From the IMG/VR virus record IMGVR_UViG_3300036791_000978, positions 1 through 37,558 of that record: 37,558 bases of DNA; one strand, 5' to 3'. This DNA is from a virus. The translations under genes were made by a program, and so were the position numbers. Positions 1 through 37,558 of this stretch are shown here, piece after piece; the stretch's first letter is position 1, and each line of letters opens with the position of its first letter. Under the pieces are notes generated by a model. That model was given only the letters and a program-made list of their open reading frames with translations, did not search any database and was not told where the DNA came from.

Positions 1-67
1 TCCTAGTTTTGAACAGCAACAAAACCAGGAAATTGCCAGGATCAAAGAGAACGTATCTAAAAACCTG
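1..67. repeat. Left copy of 67-bp terminal overlap
   Basis: Bases 1-67 match bases 37492-37558 with one difference (G at 6, A at 37497); the 61 bases after the mismatch are identical. The repeat lies inside a continuous reading frame that is in phase across the junction. It is therefore best read as the overlap of a circularly assembled genome of about 37,491 bp, not as a physical terminal repeat of packaged DNA. The single mismatch changes Ser to Asn in the encoded protein and may be strain variation or an assembly error. Confidence 0.9.
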
Positions 68-9040: not shown

Positions 9041-9688
9041 ATGCTCAATAAGAAGCTAAATGCGTTCTATAGTCACGAATTCGAAAAGGCAGCGAATCTG
9101 GTAAAAACAGACACTGAGTACGGAATACGGCGAATCGGAGAAACCGTGTTGGCTGATCTAAATAACGTTCGTGACACTTTGTTGAAATTGTATCAGACCG
9201 TGGTTCTAAATCGTCAAAATATTAGCGATGATCAACTACAAGATCTTGAAGAGATCAGCTCGAAACTGATTGTGCTGAACTTGGATCAACAAGTTTCCAG
9301 TCAACTAAATAGATGGGATCGCGGTAAAAACCCGCGGATGCTTAAACAGAATAAAGAGAAAGCCGGTTTAGTACAACTAACGCTATTTGATCCTATGGCC
9401 CACTTGACGTTAGATGAAGATTTAAGGGTAAACATGGCAGAAGCCGAACGACCGCAGGCATTACGGGCGCTTAATTGGGCGGAAACTGAGTACGACCGAC
9501 AAATAGAGAATCTGCAACAGGCTAAGCAAGAATATTGCGGTCACCTGCGGCAGAGAGTGAATTTATGGGTTCCGCAGTTCCAAACAATGCTGGATCTTGA
9601 AAGCAGGGTTTTCGGATGGAAGCCTGCATCGCCGAATAGTAATCAAGAATCCAATCAAGAGGATGATGGCTCTTCAAATGGGCATTGA
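9041..9688 (+). CDS. Helical protein of unknown function
   Basis: This 215-aa protein is almost entirely helical and charged, with coiled-coil-like segments (about 70-90 and 145-175) and no recognisable catalytic motif. GGAATAGAAAG precedes the ATG. It ends 10 bases inside the next gene, which begins with the duplicated MGIDPSDL module. The C-terminus is Ser/Asn/Asp-rich and looks disordered. Position in the early operon suggests a role in DNA metabolism. Confidence 0.55.
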   Translation: MLNKKLNAFYSHEFEKAANLVKTDTEYGIRRIGETVLADLNNVRDTLLKLYQTVVLNRQNISDDQLQDLEEISSKLIVLNLDQQVSSQLNRWDRGKNPRMLKQNKEKAGLVQLTLFDPMAHLTLDEDLRVNMAEAERPQALRALNWAETEYDRQIENLQQAKQEYCGHLRQRVNLWVPQFQTMLDLESRVFGWKPASPNSNQESNQEDDGSSNGH

Positions 9689-9738
9689 TCCAAGCGATTT
9701 AGTTGAGGCGATGCGCCGTTGCCTGGCCCCGGAGGTAC
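9663..9738 (+). repeat. Duplicated gene start, copy 1 (MGIDPSDL module)
   Basis: Bases 9678-9738 match 9970-10030 at 55 of 61 positions. Both copies are also preceded by ATGATGG, 6-8 bases upstream of the ATG. Both encode MGIDPSDLxEAMRRCLxPEV at the start of otherwise unrelated proteins. Confidence 0.9.
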
Positions 9739-9980
9739 AGACTGGAAAGGAAACTTTGGAGATTGTCGAGCGAATCAAGCCTCTGTTAGCGGGCCATGAG
9801 CCTGTCGTGCAGTCGGCCGTCCTCGCTGAACTGCTTTCCATATGGCTCGCGGGCCACTGGATTGCGAAACAATGCGAGCAGACATCGCTGATGCGCAGAG
9901 CGCTTTTATCGGCTCATTGCAGTCTTGTATGGGAGTTAACGCTAGTGAACGCGGAAATGATGGAAACTAATGGGGATTGA
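9678..9980 (+). CDS. Unknown protein sharing an N-terminal module with the VRR-NUC protein
   Basis: This 100-aa product starts at ATG 9678, chosen because the same start context and first 20 residues recur at 9970; ATGs at 9663 and 9666 are also in frame. Residues 1-20 (MGIDPSDLVEAMRRCLAPEV) are nearly identical to the start of the next protein. The remainder (25-100) is helical and hydrophobic, with LAELLSIWLAGHWI, and has no motif I know. It overlaps both neighbours. It could be a regulator that competes with the nuclease for a shared partner bound by the common N-terminus. Confidence 0.6.
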   Translation: MGIDPSDLVEAMRRCLAPEVQTGKETLEIVERIKPLLAGHEPVVQSAVLAELLSIWLAGHWIAKQCEQTSLMRRALLSAHCSLVWELTLVNAEMMETNGD

Positions 9981-10030
9981 TCCAAGCGATCTAAACGAGG
10001 CGATGCGCCGTTGCCTGGACCCGGAGGTAC
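9957..10030 (+). repeat. Duplicated gene start, copy 2 (MGIDPSDL module)
   Basis: Second copy of the module at 9663-9738. Six differences fall in the 61-bp core, two of them silent. The copy begins the VRR-NUC gene. Confidence 0.9.
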
Positions 10031-10446
10031 GCAAAGAGTTGGACACTAAGGCCGGTTTGGCCAACGCGGGCCTGACCAGCCAGGAGGCGCGTTCTAAGGG
10101 GTTGCGCAAGCTGGAACGTGAGCAACAGCGCATCCTGGCCGCGTGGCTAGCGATCCAGGAAGAGCAGGGGAGACTTTCCTACGATTGGAGTGCAACCAAC
10201 CGACGGGTGACTTGCCGGGTGGGTATGCCCGACTTCAAAGTGTACCGCGGCGGCCGAGTCCTCTTTGGGGAGATGAAGATCGATCGGGCCAGCCTCTCAC
10301 CGATGCAACGGGATATGCACGACCGGCTCCTGCGCGCCGGCTGCGAGGTCGAGATTTGGGCAAGTGCGGATTCGGCGATCCGAAGGATCAAGAATTGGAT
10401 TTGGACCAACTGGCGTGAGTGGGAAAATGACGATCATGAACATTGA
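9970..10446 (+). CDS. VRR-NUC family nuclease
   Basis: This 158-aa protein has the duplicated 20-residue N-terminus, a helical linker (about 30-60) and a VRR-NUC domain (about 60-145). The key catalytic pattern is visible: GMPDFKVYRGGRVLFGEMKID (read in two halves; Asp of PDF, then Glu and Lys of GEMK), followed by SPMQRDMHDRLLRAG, the usual Gln-containing helix. These nucleases cleave structured DNA such as junctions and flaps. It probably processes recombination or replication intermediates together with the annealing protein. Its ATG overlaps the previous stop, and its stop overlaps the next gene. Confidence 0.85.
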   Translation: MGIDPSDLNEAMRRCLDPEVRKELDTKAGLANAGLTSQEARSKGLRKLEREQQRILAAWLAIQEEQGRLSYDWSATNRRVTCRVGMPDFKVYRGGRVLFGEMKIDRASLSPMQRDMHDRLLRAGCEVEIWASADSAIRRIKNWIWTNWREWENDDHEH

Positions 10447-16674: not shown

Positions 16675-16905
16675 GTGAGCAACGGAGTACAACCCCAGGC
16701 GATAGTCATCGGAACCGCAATTCCAGGTACCACCACTATTGATGCGATATTCACGGCGATTTACGGAACGCGCTCAGCAGCGTTGACGCCGAACACGTAC
16801 CGATACAGCGACGTCAACCAGGTTCAGTGTTATTTTCCAGATAACTCCATGATTGTCGCTCGTTTCGAGGCGCGCGCATTCGCACCCAATACGATTAGTG
16901 CCTGA
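16675..16905 (+). CDS. Small beta-rich protein of unknown function
   Basis: This 76-aa product starts at GTG 16675 with a good AGGAGA site 6 bases upstream (an overlapping ATG is closed by TGA). It is predicted to be mostly beta strand (QAIVIGTAIPGTTTIDAIFTA). It overlaps the start of the portal gene by 8 bases. Its function is unknown; position suggests a minor head protein. Confidence 0.5.
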   Translation: MSNGVQPQAIVIGTAIPGTTTIDAIFTAIYGTRSAALTPNTYRYSDVNQVQCYFPDNSMIVARFEARAFAPNTISA

Positions 16906-18931
16906 GGATAACAGCGAGCTGTACGCCGCGATCTCTGACGATCTGCGCGATCGTCAGATATGGGAGAGGCGCCAGATTCTCTGGATGCGGATGCGCGGGC
17001 ACGGCGTCCACCGGCCAAATAAACCGTGGCCTGGTGCAGCCAGTATGCATGTGCCAGTCGCAGACACCATCATTGGTAAGCTTCGGCCTTACTATGTCGT
17101 TTGGGTCTTTGGTCCGGAGCTCTTAGCCAGCTTCTACTCGCTCGACGATCAAGGCGATAGTTACACTGATTCAGTCGCTCAGTGGTTCGATTACCAGGTC
17201 CGCGAGAGCTCGAATTTTACTACCGAAGCCATTTGCGCAATCGATTCCTGTTTGCAGAACGGGATGGGGATTCTCAAAACCTACTGGGACGATGACAAGC
17301 AGAACGTGGCTTATGCCAGCGTGCATCCCTATTTTATTATTGTGCCGCCGTGGAGCACATTCGATCTACAGGAGGCTGATCGGGTCGTTCACGTGATGCA
17401 TTACAGTCGGGAAGAGTATGAGCGCCAAGCCGAAACCAAAGGGTTTAATTCGGACGAATCCTACATCGATAGTATCGTTGGCGAAGGCAAGCCGGATCGC
17501 AGATATGAGCAACAACGCTATGTGGCTGAAGGCATTAGTTACAGCCGGCTCAAGGATCTGATTATTTTATGGGAAGTCTATCTGCGTGAAAGTGACGGCC
17601 AGATAACGGTCAAGACTTTTGCTCCGGGCCAACCGGACGAACCTGCGCGAGCCGATTTCAAGTTGCCTTACCAGCACAAGCAGATTCCTCTAGTCTCTAT
17701 CCCTTACGAGCTAACCGATGGTGGCTGGTTTTCGAGCCGCGGTGTGTGCGAGTTGGTGCAGATGTTCGAGGCTTCCAGCTGCAAGATGTGGAACGAGAAG
17801 CTGGATTTCATGTCGATTGCCAACCGGCCGGTTCTCTCGACGCAAGGTGGTTCGATTAACGCGCAGAACATCAGGTGGGAGCCAGGCGCCGTCTATGATT
17901 CGGTGCTCCAATTAGTTCAGCAGCCGGAGCCGCCGATTAGTTTTGACCAGGAGATTGCCAGCACTCGCTCGATGGCTGAGCAGCGTGTGGGAATTCCTGA
18001 CTTCGGAGTCTCCACGCCCAGTCAGCCTGAGGCCAGCGGTACGGCTCCAAAAACAGCTACTGAAACCAATGTCATCACCAATGTGATGCAGCAATCCAAC
18101 GATTTGCGGGCCCGGATTCTTAAAGGCGCATTATCAAAAGTTTTCGAACAGAGCTGGGGTTTACTCAAGCAGTACAAGACTAGCAGCTTGGATTACTTCT
18201 GGCGCAATGAGCGTTTGACTCTCAAAGATTCGGCTTTCGACAACAAGTATGTACTCAAGCCCAACGGCTCGGTTGATGGGTACAGCAGAGAAAAAGAGAT
18301 TCAGAAGTTGATGCAGTTGCGGCAACTGGGGCAAGGCTCACCCTGGATTATACTCCCGGAGGTCGACCGCAAAATCATTGAACTCATGGATGCCCAATGG
18401 ATTGCCGATCTCTACCAACAACCGAAAGATCTCGCAGCAGACCAGCAGGAACAGCAAGCCATAGAGAATTCGGTGATGAGTGACGGGTTCCTTCCCCCGG
18501 TCAAGCCTAATGATGATCATGTGGTCCACATGCAGATTGAGGATGGGTTCATCGGCTGGAAAGCGCAACACGGCCAACCGATTACTCCCGATCTGATGCC
18601 GATCTTCATGCAGCATATGCAGATGCATATCCAAGCTGCAAAACAAAACCCGCAATACATGCAGGCGCACGGGAACGATGTCGCTACCTTCCAGCAGAAA
18701 CTCGCCGCGACACAGAAGCAGCAGAAAGCTCAAAGCCAAGCCGGGGCAGCTATGACGGCTTTGCGCGGCGGCGCGCCTCCTGGGATGCCTGGAATGCCTC
18801 CCGGTGGACCTCCGGGCGCAGCTGGTGCAATGCCACCCCCAGGTGCACCGCCGCCGCCTCCACCGCCGATTCCGGGCAACCCTGCGGCTGGGCCGCCGTC
18901 ACCTAACGGTTCGGGAGGTTTGCCGATGTGA
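16898..18931 (+). CDS. Portal protein (podovirus type)
   Basis: This is a 677-aa product from GTG 16898; the frame also has TTG 16853, but that would overlap the previous gene by 53 bases. The N-terminal part (about 5-60) is helical and charged, followed by KPWPGAASMHVPVADTI, a segment common in large portal proteins of short-tailed phages. The middle contains long helices and a conserved-looking TATETNVITNVMQQSNDLRARI at about 385-407 (read in two parts). The last ~90 residues are Gln/Met-rich, then Pro/Gly-rich. Portals form the dodecameric ring where DNA enters and the tail attaches. Size and position between terminase and scaffold/capsid genes support the call. Confidence 0.85.
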   Translation: MPEDNSELYAAISDDLRDRQIWERRQILWMRMRGHGVHRPNKPWPGAASMHVPVADTIIGKLRPYYVVWVFGPELLASFYSLDDQGDSYTDSVAQWFDYQVRESSNFTTEAICAIDSCLQNGMGILKTYWDDDKQNVAYASVHPYFIIVPPWSTFDLQEADRVVHVMHYSREEYERQAETKGFNSDESYIDSIVGEGKPDRRYEQQRYVAEGISYSRLKDLIILWEVYLRESDGQITVKTFAPGQPDEPARADFKLPYQHKQIPLVSIPYELTDGGWFSSRGVCELVQMFEASSCKMWNEKLDFMSIANRPVLSTQGGSINAQNIRWEPGAVYDSVLQLVQQPEPPISFDQEIASTRSMAEQRVGIPDFGVSTPSQPEASGTAPKTATETNVITNVMQQSNDLRARILKGALSKVFEQSWGLLKQYKTSSLDYFWRNERLTLKDSAFDNKYVLKPNGSVDGYSREKEIQKLMQLRQLGQGSPWIILPEVDRKIIELMDAQWIADLYQQPKDLAADQQEQQAIENSVMSDGFLPPVKPNDDHVVHMQIEDGFIGWKAQHGQPITPDLMPIFMQHMQMHIQAAKQNPQYMQAHGNDVATFQQKLAATQKQQKAQSQAGAAMTALRGGAPPGMPGMPPGGPPGAAGAMPPPGAPPPPPPPIPGNPAAGPPSPNGSGGLPM

Positions 18932-18995
18932 CCAAAGCCATTCTCCAGTGGTATTTGCGGACCATCCTAGCCAAGCCGTTTTTGCGTGCGGTCGA
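18926..18995 (+). repeat. Duplicated gene start, copy 1 (VTKAILQWYLR module)
   Basis: These 70 bases match 19465-19534 at 66 positions; the first 36 are identical. The copy begins with ATGTGA, which ends the portal gene (ATG TGA) and starts the next frame (GTG). It encodes VTKAILQWYLRTILAKPFLR followed by AVD. Two of the four differences are silent. Confidence 0.95.
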
Positions 18996-19470
18996 CTTGA
19001 TCATCGCAGGAATCGCCGCCCTGGCTTTCGGCATCTACGAACTGATCACGCACTGGAAAGAGGTTTCAGTTCATGAAACCCCTGCTCTGACAGCCTTCGA
19101 CAACTGTCCTGACGCGCAGGTCACTGAAGGTGTGCACCCGCCTCCGGCTGCATTCGAACATCAGGACTCCGAACGTTCCTATCATGATGGATTAATCCGC
19201 CGAAACAAGATCGCCTCCAGGCTCAAGCCGGATTACCTGATCTTCCAAAACTGCTTTTTTCGTGACCTGCTGCACGCCTGCCAGAGTCAGGATAGCAGCC
19301 GCCATCTTGTCTCCGTCTGTCGCATCCCCGATGTGCTCCTTATCCGTCACGCTTTCCAGATACTCCTCGTAATCCTTGATCAATTCCTGGTTAACCATAA
19401 TCTCCTAAATCCGTTTCAGGGCTTTCAGGTAGCCCCGGTTCCTGAGCGGTTTAACTTCCATTGCATGTGA
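18928..19470 (+). CDS. Frame with duplicated N-terminus and a membrane helix; C-terminal part doubtful
   Basis: This is a 180-aa frame from GTG 18928, which overlaps the portal stop. Residues 1-23 are the duplicated module. They are followed by a predicted membrane helix (about 24-43, LIIAGIAALAFGIYELITHW). From about residue 90 on, the frame runs antisense to the leftward gene 19192-19398, and its content there looks non-genic, so the true product may be shorter or non-functional. The frame ends at the TGA in the ATGTGA of the second module copy. It may be a remnant created when the leftward gene was inserted. Confidence 0.4.
   Translation: MTKAILQWYLRTILAKPFLRAVDLIIAGIAALAFGIYELITHWKEVSVHETPALTAFDNCPDAQVTEGVHPPPAAFEHQDSERSYHDGLIRRNKIASRLKPDYLIFQNCFFRDLLHACQSQDSSRHLVSVCRIPDVLLIRHAFQILLVILDQFLVNHNLLNPFQGFQVAPVPERFNFHCM
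19062..19080 (-). terminator. Weak hairpin downstream of the leftward accessory gene
   Basis: GGTTTCA (19062-19068) and TGAAACC (19074-19080) form a 7-bp stem with a 5-nt loop; on the minus strand it is followed by TCTTTCC. It lies 110 bp downstream of the leftward gene ending at 19192. The tail is only partly T-rich, so termination is uncertain. Confidence 0.35.
19192..19398 (-). CDS. Leftward accessory gene inside the head operon
   Basis: This 68-aa protein is acidic at the start, with helices (QELIKDYEEYLESVTDKEH; AAAILTLAGVQQVTKKAVL) and no membrane segment. AGGAG lies 6 bases before its ATG (19398), a far better site than most genes here have. It is the only gene I can support on this strand between 6.0 kb and the right end. 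It sits between two near-identical copies of a gene start (18926 and 19465), as if inserted with a duplication. No convincing promoter is visible. It is a candidate moron or regulator expressed apart from the late genes. Confidence 0.65.
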   Translation of the reverse strand: MVNQELIKDYEEYLESVTDKEHIGDATDGDKMAAAILTLAGVQQVTKKAVLEDQVIRLEPGGDLVSAD

Positions 19471-19534
19471 CCAAAGCCATTCTCCAGTGGTATTTGCGGA
19501 TGATTCTTGCCAAGCCGTTTTTGCGTGCGGTCGA
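19465..19534 (+). repeat. Duplicated gene start, copy 2 (VTKAILQWYLR module)
   Basis: Second copy of the 70-bp repeat at 18926-18995. It starts the gene at 19467. Confidence 0.95.
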
Positions 19535-19841
19535 TTGGACCAAGGAGGAACGCGCGCAATTTGACTTGTTCGCTCGGTCAAGTTGCGGTATGAAGCTTTT
19601 CGAATTCCTGCGCCAACTTGTCGCTAACGCAACGTTTCGAGCTGTTTACCAGAACTCGGTGAGCGCCAACGGCCATGCACGAGGAATGCAGGATATTTTA
19701 GGTGCCCTTCACAAGCTTCGCGCTTTCCCAGCTTACGAGGAGAGCCAGACAGAAAGCTTGGACGAGGTGCTTTCGCCTGGTGAACGCTCTGTGCCCGATA
19801 GCTGGCGTCCACCCGTAGGCGGTCGTGGTGCTATCGGATAA
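19467..19841 (+). CDS. Head-region protein with duplicated N-terminal module
   Basis: This is a 124-aa product from GTG 19467. Residues 1-23 are the shared module (VTKAILQWYLRMILAKPFLR then AVD). After it, WTKEERAQFDLFARSSCGMKLFEFLRQL and the helical remainder (to about 95) resemble the small conserved helical proteins often found between portal and scaffold genes in podoviruses; the function of those is not known. The C-terminus is acidic and then Pro/Gly-rich. It ends 7 bp before the scaffold gene. This copy has the body expected for the location, so it is probably the original gene and 18928 the derived copy. Confidence 0.6.
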   Translation: MTKAILQWYLRMILAKPFLRAVDWTKEERAQFDLFARSSCGMKLFEFLRQLVANATFRAVYQNSVSANGHARGMQDILGALHKLRAFPAYEESQTESLDEVLSPGERSVPDSWRPPVGGRGAIG

Positions 19842-19848
19842 GCTTGAT

Positions 19849-20718
19849 ATGCCAGAAGAAACATCCAGCTCGAGTTCTGCCTCCGAGGCAATGCCGAGCA
19901 GTACGCCAACTAGCACTGAGACTCAAAGCAGTGCACCGTCTCAAGAACCGAGCCAGAACGCCCATACGCACAAGCTTGGTGAGAGCGCTCCCAATCAGCA
20001 GAATGGCGACCAGAAGCCGAAACCTTTAAGCCGGTACGAGCGCACCAAGCGACAGCGTGCCGAGATAGCCAGACGCGAAGCCACTTTACAGCAGCGGGAA
20101 CGTCAGCTTGCCGAGATCGAGCGAGCGCGAACCGAAGCCGCCAAGCCTAAGCGCGACTATACTCTTGGTGACCTGCAGAAGTATCGGCGCCAATGGGAAA
20201 GCGAAGGCAATTACGATCTGGTCGAAAAGGCGGATAAAGAAATCGCCGCCATGCAGGCTGAGCTAGAGGCCGAACGCAAGGCGCGGACGGTCGAAATGCC
20301 GCCGATGGGCACTCCGGAACATCGTACACAGTGGGAAGCCGCTGAACGCGAGTTGTATCAGGCCGATCCGGAATTTATGAGGGCTGGCACCAGGTTGGAT
20401 ACCAGGCTGCGGCAGATTATGAGCAGCGAGGATGGCAACGTTTATCGCCAGCATCCGCGCGGGATAATCGCGGCATATCATCGGGCAAAAATGGAACTCT
20501 TGGAAGCCGATAGAAATGATCTGCAGACGAGATTCCAAAAACTTGAAGAAGAGAACAAGCGTCTGAACGGACTGACCTCATTGAGCGGTGGAACGCGCAG
20601 CAGTGTCGGTAACGGATCAACAGTCGGATCTGTATCTGAGTTTGCCAAGTTATCGACCAAAGACATGCGCAAACATCTGCTCAAAGGAGCCAATCGCGGC
20701 TCAACGCCATGGTTCTAA
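19849..20718 (+). CDS. Scaffolding protein
   Basis: This is a 289-aa product from ATG 19849, with GGATAAG 7 bases upstream; a GTG at 19825 is also in frame. The N-terminal ~60 residues are Ser/Thr/Pro/Gln-rich and disordered. A long charged coiled coil follows (about 60-155, RYERTKRQRAEIARREATL), then a second helical region and a Gly/Ser-rich segment before the basic C-terminus (KHLLKGANRG). Disordered N-terminus, coiled coil and basic C-terminal helix placed directly before the capsid gene is the usual form of a phage scaffold, which guides prohead assembly and then leaves. Confidence 0.75.
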   Translation: MPEETSSSSSASEAMPSSTPTSTETQSSAPSQEPSQNAHTHKLGESAPNQQNGDQKPKPLSRYERTKRQRAEIARREATLQQRERQLAEIERARTEAAKPKRDYTLGDLQKYRRQWESEGNYDLVEKADKEIAAMQAELEAERKARTVEMPPMGTPEHRTQWEAAERELYQADPEFMRAGTRLDTRLRQIMSSEDGNVYRQHPRGIIAAYHRAKMELLEADRNDLQTRFQKLEEENKRLNGLTSLSGGTRSSVGNGSTVGSVSEFAKLSTKDMRKHLLKGANRGSTPWF

Positions 20719-35335: not shown

Positions 35336-37558
35336 ATGGCCTCACCGGATACTGATACTGATACCGATACTGAGGCTCAGGTAGATACCGAGGAAGCGCC
35401 GCAGGCGGATCAAGAGTTTCAGCCTGCAGGTAATGCGGCGGTAATCCGCTGGCAAGACGCTCAGCCGCCAGCCGATCAAGTCGATCAAGCCGCGCAACCT
35501 GCTGAAGAACCGGAATACCAGCCTGCGGGCAAGGCGGCCGTCGTCAGGTGGCAACAGCCGCAAGCTCAGGCTCAGCCGCAACCGTCGCAACAGTCTGATC
35601 AACTGGCGGAATTTTTCCCTAGCGAATTCCCGGCATCACCAGGGGCGCCCGCGGAGGCGGCACCAGCGGGTGGGTCGCAAGAGCCCGCGATTACAAATCA
35701 GGCTCGTTATTATACGCCCTATGATGGTACGCGGCCTATCGATGCAATCATCCTGCACTCGAGCGATGGGCGCACGGTTGCTGGTGACGTCAACACGCTG
35801 GCAACGGGTGATCCAGATCACAAGGTTAGCGCGCATTACTACACGACTGCTGATGGGCAATCGCTACATTTTGTCAACGATAACGATATAGCGTACCACG
35901 CCGGCGCGACTAGCGGAAAGCTGGCAAACTACAATAACGAAAACACTATCGGGATTGAGCAGCAGCATGTTGATGGAGAACCCTGGAAAGATTCTCAGGT
36001 TCAGGGTACGGCTCAAACCGTTGCTGATCTTCTACGCCGTTATCCAAATTTAGATATAAACCACGTTCTAGGGCACTCCGATATCGCTCCAGAGCGAAAG
36101 CAAGACCCGCTCAATTTTCCCTGGGACACGTTTCGTAAATATGTAGCTCAGGATCTAGCGCAAGGAGCAGGGGGGACGCCAGCGCAACCATCTGCGGCGG
36201 CGCAACCTTCCAGCCAGCTGGCTGATTTTTTTCCCAGTGAGTACGGGCCGCCTCCGGAGGCAACTGCAGCAGGTCCGCCCAAAGCGCAGCCGGTTCCAGG
36301 CGGACCTGTGCCACGTGCACGGCCCGCAGCTCAGGGGGCAAATGGACTCTACGACTACGAGAACCCGCAAGATTTCGTTACTGGCCCGGCAACGATATTC
36401 GGTGATAAAAACGATATTGCAAGTGGTCAAGACAGTGGCGTTGGTGCGCCCCGTCTCGGCGGTTTACCCACGACAGACATATACGGCGTAGCGGTGCCCG
36501 AATGGGTTTTAAGGTCCAGATTAGGCAATAGTCCAGCGGCTTGGCGCAAGGCGCGTATGGATGTTGTCGATCCCTCTAGCGGTAACAGGTTACGGGTTCC
36601 CATCGTTGACTTGGGGCCGAGCTCTGCTCAGGAAGAGAAGGGGATTGTGGCCGATCTTACCCCCGGCGTAGATAAATTCTTCAACAATCAGGGCGGCGGC
36701 AAAAATCTCATGTTCAATCTGGTCAGAAATGCTGGACCGGACGTGAACAGCAATACGCCAGAGTGGAACAACGAACAGGCGGCGATCGCGAGCGGGATAG
36801 ATGTCGGACAGACGTCCAAAGCCGCGCAAACTTATCCGCCAAGAGGACGTGCCGGCGGCGGTGCTGCCGCTCCGGCAGAGCAGCAAGCCTGGGGGGTTCG
36901 CTTGGTTGATGACGCCGAGATTGAGGGGGCGCGTCAAGCGACGCAGCAACAGAAGCAACAGCAAAATCTCGATGCGTTGCCAATCTTGAATAATTTGCAG
37001 CAACAGAACCCGAATCCGGCCGCTATGATAAAGGTGTTAAGCCAGCCGATCGAGGGTGTTAGCGACGATACTCGCAACGACTACCTGGCCAACTATAAGC
37101 AGCAAGCAACCAAACAAGCGCAGGAATTCTATAACGAACCAGATCCGGACAAGGCATTAGCTAAAGCGACCGGCAGCGTTGGGGTGTTTGGGTTAGGTGC
37201 AGATTTCTGGCACAAGATTATAGCCGGAGCACAGGAATACCAGTTGCCTGCCGCACAAGCGGGTCCGTACGGCACAGCTAAGAACGATATTAATTCATTT
37301 TTTGGCAAAGCAGGGATTACTGGTGATGCTGATCAGCACGCTTTCTTAGCCAAAATGGCTACGATGTCGCACGATGAACGCGAAAAAGCGATTGCGGCTG
37401 TGTTGCCTCCATCTATTCCAGGGGTAACCATGGATTTAGGGCCATCCACTAATCCTGAGTATCTATCAAGAGCGTTCGATAAAATATTTGATCCTAATTT
37501 TGAACAGCAACAAAACCAGGAAATTGCCAGGATCAAAGAGAACGTATCTAAAAACCTG
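35336..37558 (+). CDS. Large internal virion/ejection protein with zinc amidase domain (continues at 1-1753)
   Basis: The frame begins at ATG 35336 and runs off the right end; it continues in phase through the 67-bp overlap to the stop at 1753, giving 1302 aa in total. Residues 1-110 are disordered with an Asp-Thr repeat and two copies of a 'QPAGxAAVxRW' motif. Residues about 122-270 are an N-acetylmuramoyl-L-alanine amidase domain (Amidase_2/PGRP type) with zinc ligands H141 (IILHSS), H247 (LGHSDI) and D257 (KQDP), plus the IGIEQQH strand, so it should be active. The motif QLA-E/D-FFPSE flanks the domain on both sides (89-97 and 294-302). The rest is a mixed helical region. It would open the cell wall locally while DNA enters. 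It has no signal peptide and is probably carried inside the capsid. Confidence 0.85.
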   Translation, partial: MASPDTDTDTDTEAQVDTEEAPQADQEFQPAGNAAVIRWQDAQPPADQVDQAAQPAEEPEYQPAGKAAVVRWQQPQAQAQPQPSQQSDQLAEFFPSEFPASPGAPAEAAPAGGSQEPAITNQARYYTPYDGTRPIDAIILHSSDGRTVAGDVNTLATGDPDHKVSAHYYTTADGQSLHFVNDNDIAYHAGATSGKLANYNNENTIGIEQQHVDGEPWKDSQVQGTAQTVADLLRRYPNLDINHVLGHSDIAPERKQDPLNFPWDTFRKYVAQDLAQGAGGTPAQPSAAAQPSSQLADFFPSEYGPPPEATAAGPPKAQPVPGGPVPRARPAAQGANGLYDYENPQDFVTGPATIFGDKNDIASGQDSGVGAPRLGGLPTTDIYGVAVPEWVLRSRLGNSPAAWRKARMDVVDPSSGNRLRVPIVDLGPSSAQEEKGIVADLTPGVDKFFNNQGGGKNLMFNLVRNAGPDVNSNTPEWNNEQAAIASGIDVGQTSKAAQTYPPRGRAGGGAAAPAEQQAWGVRLVDDAEIEGARQATQQQKQQQNLDALPILNNLQQQNPNPAAMIKVLSQPIEGVSDDTRNDYLANYKQQATKQAQEFYNEPDPDKALAKATGSVGVFGLGADFWHKIIAGAQEYQLPAAQAGPYGTAKNDINSFFGKAGITGDADQHAFLAKMATMSHDEREKAIAAVLPPSIPGVTMDLGPSTNPEYLSRAFDKIFDPNFEQQQNQEIARIKENVSKNL
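37492..37558. repeat. Right copy of 67-bp terminal overlap
   Basis: Matches bases 1-67 with a single difference (A at 37497 against G at 6). It lies inside the ejection protein gene and shows that the sequence closes into a circle. Confidence 0.9.

Follow-up and report, generated by a model that had tools for sequence, protein, structure and literature searches.

The start of the gene that follows the portal gene occurs twice in the window, as we call the whole 37,558-nucleotide stretch analyzed here (IMG/VR record IMGVR_UViG_3300036791_000978, positions 1 to 37,558), and the two copies enclose broken pieces of genes from other phages, across which a single frame of 180 codons stays open from the first start to the second (Table 1). 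Taking the explanation as a whole, we think it probable that non-homologous recombination inserted a mosaic of pieces from other phages after the portal gene, ahead of the downstream gene coupled to it, and that the open frame relays ribosomes across the scrap. The repeat, the foreign origin of the insert, the broken genes, the open frame, the overlaps, the Shine-Dalgarno strengths, and the state of the site in relatives are observed or computed.

Table 1. Features of the portal region and of the second duplicated gene head (window positions)
Feature	Positions	Strand	Basis or remark
Copy 1 of second duplicated head	9677-9738	+	
ORF: duplicated head joined to the body of an intact small gene (KETLEIVERIKPLL...)	9678-9980	+	stops inside copy 2
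Copy 2 of second duplicated head	9969-10030	+	start of VRR-NUC gene (9970-10446)
Portal protein gene, SU10-like	16853-18931	+	PF23899 E = 2e-9; PHROG portal
GGGAGG, strong Shine-Dalgarno in portal end, ahead of copy 1	18913-18918	+	anti-Shine-Dalgarno duplex -11.0 kcal/mol
Copy 1 of repeat	18926-19003	+	portal Met-stop and first 23 codons of downstream gene
Chimeric 180-codon frame: gene head, tape-measure-like piece, antisense R/gpU	18928-19470	+	proposed relay
Tape-measure-protein-like membrane segment LIIAGIAALAFGIYELITHWKEVS	18997-19068	+	in frame of copy 1
About 41 nt between the two foreign pieces	19069-19109		no match in loci compared
Inverted foreign fragment: spike-gene end, R, gpU start	19110-19466	-	homologous to L044 99-414
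gpU, first ~25 codons, then abrupt break	19110-19185	-	compared with L044
Leftward ORF, remnant of R from internal Met	19192-19398	-	comparison with L044 relatives
Amber TAG at R codon 19 (TAC in L044)	19405-19407	-	sequence comparison
Copy 2 of repeat	19465-19542	+	true start of downstream gene; gives relay frame its stop TGA
Downstream gene, 124 aa, intact	19467-19841	+	conserved; between portal and scaffold-like gene

The duplicated gene head

The two copies form a direct repeat of 78 nt at 91% identity and an offset of 539, far above chance since self-BLAST returns it at E = 3e-25. An earlier, sequence-only reading counted four differences, two silent, over the first 70 nt and placed an ATGTGA at the opening of each copy; we find exactly this. 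Both copies encode VTKAILQWYLR(T/M)ILAKPFLRAVD, where CC to TG within one codon exchanges Thr for Met; ATC to ATT and CTA to CTT are silent, as is a fifth difference at base 71 (GAC to GAT), and the copies differ at 7 of 78 positions altogether. That the start of the target gene is repeated, and that the gene itself is kept intact, is likewise borne out: the downstream gene is complete in the window and conserved in every relative whose locus covers that region.

Origin of the insert

The insert had been proposed to be a foreign cassette carrying a leftward gene with a strong AGGAG. Foreign it is, the reverse strand matching the baseplate module of the contractile-tail phage loci L044-L048, but it holds no working gene cassette. 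Read leftward, 19466-19110 aligns with L044 99-414 (blastn E = 3e-64; identity 74% over the whole match, almost complete in some blocks), and the insert is homologous, in inverse orientation, to L044 and to L046-L048, where the native order is the baseplate spike gene (...NGS*), a small gene R overlapping its end, gpU (a PF06995 match in L044), and a gp25-like gene. The inverted fragment in the window retains the spike-gene end. Its gpU piece differs from L044 at 4 of 76 nt, all of them third codon positions, after which similarity is lost; because the differences are all third-position, most of the gpU divergence would predate loss of function, having accumulated while the gene was functional in the donor line, and the transfer is therefore more recent than that divergence. 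As a separate observation, two tandem gp25-like genes (79% over 228 nt) follow gpU in L047 (4259-4932).

The leftward ORF (68 aa) and its AGGAG do exist, but the ORF is a remnant of R rather than the cargo of a cassette. A single base difference from L044 makes both the amber codon in R, at a position where none of four relatives has a stop, and the AGGAG. On account of the amber codon and the truncated gpU we rejected a working cassette with a leftward gene. We consider it highly improbable that this ORF functions as a moron, an accessory gene with expression from its own strand: although it carries an AGGAG, and relatives of R, a small baseplate-region gene, are conserved next to gpU, its start is an internal Met behind the amber, the AGGAG lies merely 3 nt from the ATG, its orientation is opposite to that of the late operon, a consensus scan of 18700-19900 found no sigma-70-like promoter or terminator, and the R product had no match among annotated phages.

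The other foreign piece, the membrane segment in the frame of copy 1, shares 52-86% amino acid identity over 14-25 residues with L041, L042, and L043, of which L041 matches tape-measure PHROGs; its donor tape-measure gene was not found among annotated phages. By these matches, the insert is scrap from at least two sources. Profile searches of the inserts with Pfam and PHROGs gave no match. A selfish (homing or transposable) element was also considered and rejected, as Pfam and PHROG searches revealed neither nuclease nor transposase and there is no inverted repeat. Searches of bacterial genomes with portal and gpU gave no match and thus pointed to no host.

The site in relatives

Searches of viral contigs with the portal and the downstream gene yielded 46 other loci with a readable junction, some of them mutually close. 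In 20 of these the start of the downstream gene sits directly on the portal stop, with a 4-nt overlap; another 21 have an insert of 119-497 nt between the two genes, in most cases a single small forward gene, at times a pair, belonging to several unrelated families; and the other five have short gaps of 2-49 nt or, in one locus, an uncertain portal end. The sequence-only reading had suggested looking for relatives without the 539-bp unit and for other genes at the same spot, and both exist; it had named as contrary evidence the presence, in all relatives, of both copies and a conserved product of the 18928 frame, which was looked for and not found. Two real genes arising by ordinary duplication were rejected for the same reason, no relative carrying the 18928 product. 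The window's own insert is absent from all 46 loci and from every other contig searched; the closest relative, L001 (~89-90% DNA identity), has a different gene of 50 codons at the site.

Inserts at this site follow a pattern of translation signals. The last portal codons contain a Shine-Dalgarno sequence for whichever gene comes next: it serves the downstream gene where no insert is present, and in loci with an insert the first inserted gene takes that site. Shine-Dalgarno strength of the downstream gene is greater in loci without an insert (Mann-Whitney p = 0.0012), and within loci with an insert that of the first inserted gene exceeds that of the downstream gene (p = 0.0002), both p-values being rough because of phylogenetic dependence among the relatives. 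Among the 21 inserts, 17 have an ORF of 35 codons or more whose stop coincides exactly with the downstream start, and in 20 the insert ORF stops within -8 to +28 nt of that start. The window lies at the extreme of the Shine-Dalgarno pattern, with -11.0 kcal/mol at copy 1 and +1.5 kcal/mol at copy 2, where the downstream gene has no Shine-Dalgarno of its own; it might use an unrecognized start.

Several further observations concern the site. Small-gene families recur there in L053, L099, L018, L006, L012, L026, L088, L090, L076, and L028, for example those marked by IEYIGGPYAG...CPxCxGxG, xRLTPRQW, MITEREK, and YVKFKEWDAYF, which are common to otherwise different phages. In L018 (3262-3723) the portal tail and the 5′ half of the downstream gene are 83-98% identical to the window and the remaining portal 70%, a pattern that looks like local exchange around the insertion site; L018 is also nearer to copy 1 than to copy 2 (98.4% over 62 nt). 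In L006 (7710-8230) and L010 (7692-8223) a duplicate of the portal tail (69-73%) lies past the portal stop, behind a handful of codons that resemble the start of the downstream gene, and in L010 a further small gene follows the duplicated tail.

The last two loci bear on the order of events. If an ordinary tandem duplication of the portal end and gene head had come first, with foreign DNA later replacing the interior, relatives might be expected to show what these two do, namely a repeated portal tail at this site behind a short stretch like the downstream start; the window's insert, however, has no portal-tail remnant, and the resemblance to the downstream start in L010 amounts to just 5 of 6 residues, so that we think this order rather unlikely.

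A chimeric frame as a putative translational relay

The rightward frame from copy 1, unmentioned in the sequence-only reading, runs antisense to the leftward ORF and is open for 180 codons; its stop TGA (19468-19470) overlaps the GTG of copy 2 (19467) as GTGA, and the geometry of the overlap (4 nt) is the same at both ends of the inserted frame. An open frame of 157 codons occurs in 0.7% of random sequences of this composition. We nevertheless ceased to count the openness of this antisense frame as proving selection: the antisense frame of L044 is open too, and selection on the 180-codon frame is unproven for that reason.

Because copy 2 lacks a Shine-Dalgarno and copy 1 retains the strong one in the portal end, the chimeric frame is probably a translational relay. 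In the explanation that we favor, i) the left crossover would fall within the downstream gene, at its codon 23, and the right crossover just ahead of its start, which would duplicate the head and preserve the full gene; ii) the cargo would consist of the tape-measure-like piece followed by the inverted baseplate fragment with its nonsense-cut R and truncated gpU; iii) the Shine-Dalgarno of the portal end would now drive copy 1; iv) ribosomes initiating at copy 1 would translate the 180 codons across the scrap, halt at the TGA within the GTGA of copy 2, and restart on the real downstream gene; and v) the slot would owe both its ends to the head duplication, the start to copy 1 and the stop to copy 2. 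We infer the order of these events, the translation of the relay frame, and a filtering of recombinants for a frame that is open and in phase. Reporter work in E. coli found reinitiation reduced by 80-100% at a stop-start spacing of 38 nt (PMC10666635); for this reason an insert of 535 nt with no open frame through it should uncouple or silence the downstream gene, barring a start signal of its own. Of all the features here, the 18928 frame, which links the portal to the downstream gene, is the likeliest to be of consequence.

The frame could instead encode a working small membrane protein, made by fusing the duplicated gene head to the tape-measure segment. A strong start signal, a frame of 180 codons, and a predicted membrane segment at residues 22-40 would suit such a protein, but two thirds of the product is antisense to R/gpU, and apart from the head that it shares and the tape-measure motif, it has no homologue in phages or viral contigs; we regard a functional product as very unlikely.

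A second duplicated gene head

The copies at 9677 and 9969 (62 nt, 90%) show the same layout as those at 18926 and 19465, with a real gene body between them. The left edge of each is a start-stop overlap with the upstream frame (NGH*, NGD*). The body belongs to a family of small genes with members in L101-L104, and L101-L103 encode it without the head; L100 has a single VRR-NUC head behind a different upstream gene. In both cases in the window, copy 1 is the nearer to the heads of relatives. The 9678 product had no match among annotated phages.

This second duplication also weighs against an artefact of assembly or library construction in which pieces of different phages were joined. The window is a metagenome contig, only this contig carries the structure, three unrelated pieces (one of them inverted) lie within 539 nt, and the contig ends differ at one base of a 67-nt repeat, so that a strain mixture is present. 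An artefact would nonetheless need three separate joins without long overlaps, with the frame maintained across all of them and the stop landing on a gene start; nor does a repeat-driven misjoin explain head copies that differ from each other. We judge it unlikely.

Mosaicism and known systems

Phage mosaicism is usually ascribed to random non-homologous recombination followed by selection, and unselected recombination products seldom come to light, since the joins that survive are only the clean, gene-for-gene ones. Under the recombination and relay explanation, a raw product would still be visible here, between two morphogenesis (head) genes; scrap would be tolerated because the duplicated head preserves start, overlap, and phase for the next gene. 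Only tentatively do we suggest that, by duplicating a gene head together with the start-stop overlap, this phage family repeatedly opens translation-ready slots in coupled operons. If so, whatever DNA lies between the heads would become a coupled cistron provided that it is open in phase, so that scrap could be carried and later swapped for useful genes.

The closest published case is gene 68 of mycobacteriophage Island3, an extra gene that shares ~50-60 bp with the end of its neighbor; its close relative Brujita has a single copy, and the two Island3 copies differ slightly (Pope et al. 2011, PMC3029335). Common to both cases are extra DNA beside a gene with a shared edge, slightly differing copies, and single-copy relatives. 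The Island3 insert, however, is one forward orphan gene and the sequence it shares is a 3′ end, whereas in the window a 5′ end with its start signals is shared and the insert consists of partly inverted foreign scrap. Here the edge repeat of 78 nt is accompanied by 20 single-copy relatives without an insert; no near-identical genome pair differing only by the insert was found, L001 having another insert. By this analogy, the window holds the gene-start counterpart of the Island3 gene-end case, with scrap as cargo.

Morons are defined by their position, as DNA lying between a pair of genes that are direct neighbors in relatives (PMC3029335), and the window's insert is so placed, but it has no promoter or terminator by consensus scan and no intact gene, and the head of the target gene is repeated beside it. 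The overlap geometry is also that of termination-reinitiation coupling at 4-nt ATGA/GTGA overlaps (PMC10666635): the upstream stop overlaps the downstream start as GTGA, and the start's own Shine-Dalgarno is weak (+1.5 kcal/mol). The upstream frame differs in being a chimera through foreign DNA and not an evolved gene, and the coupling is putative.

Finally, window positions 1-67 and 37492-37558 are near-identical, with one mismatch, which suggests a complete, circularly assembled genome of ~37.5 kb, though the record is classed as linear.
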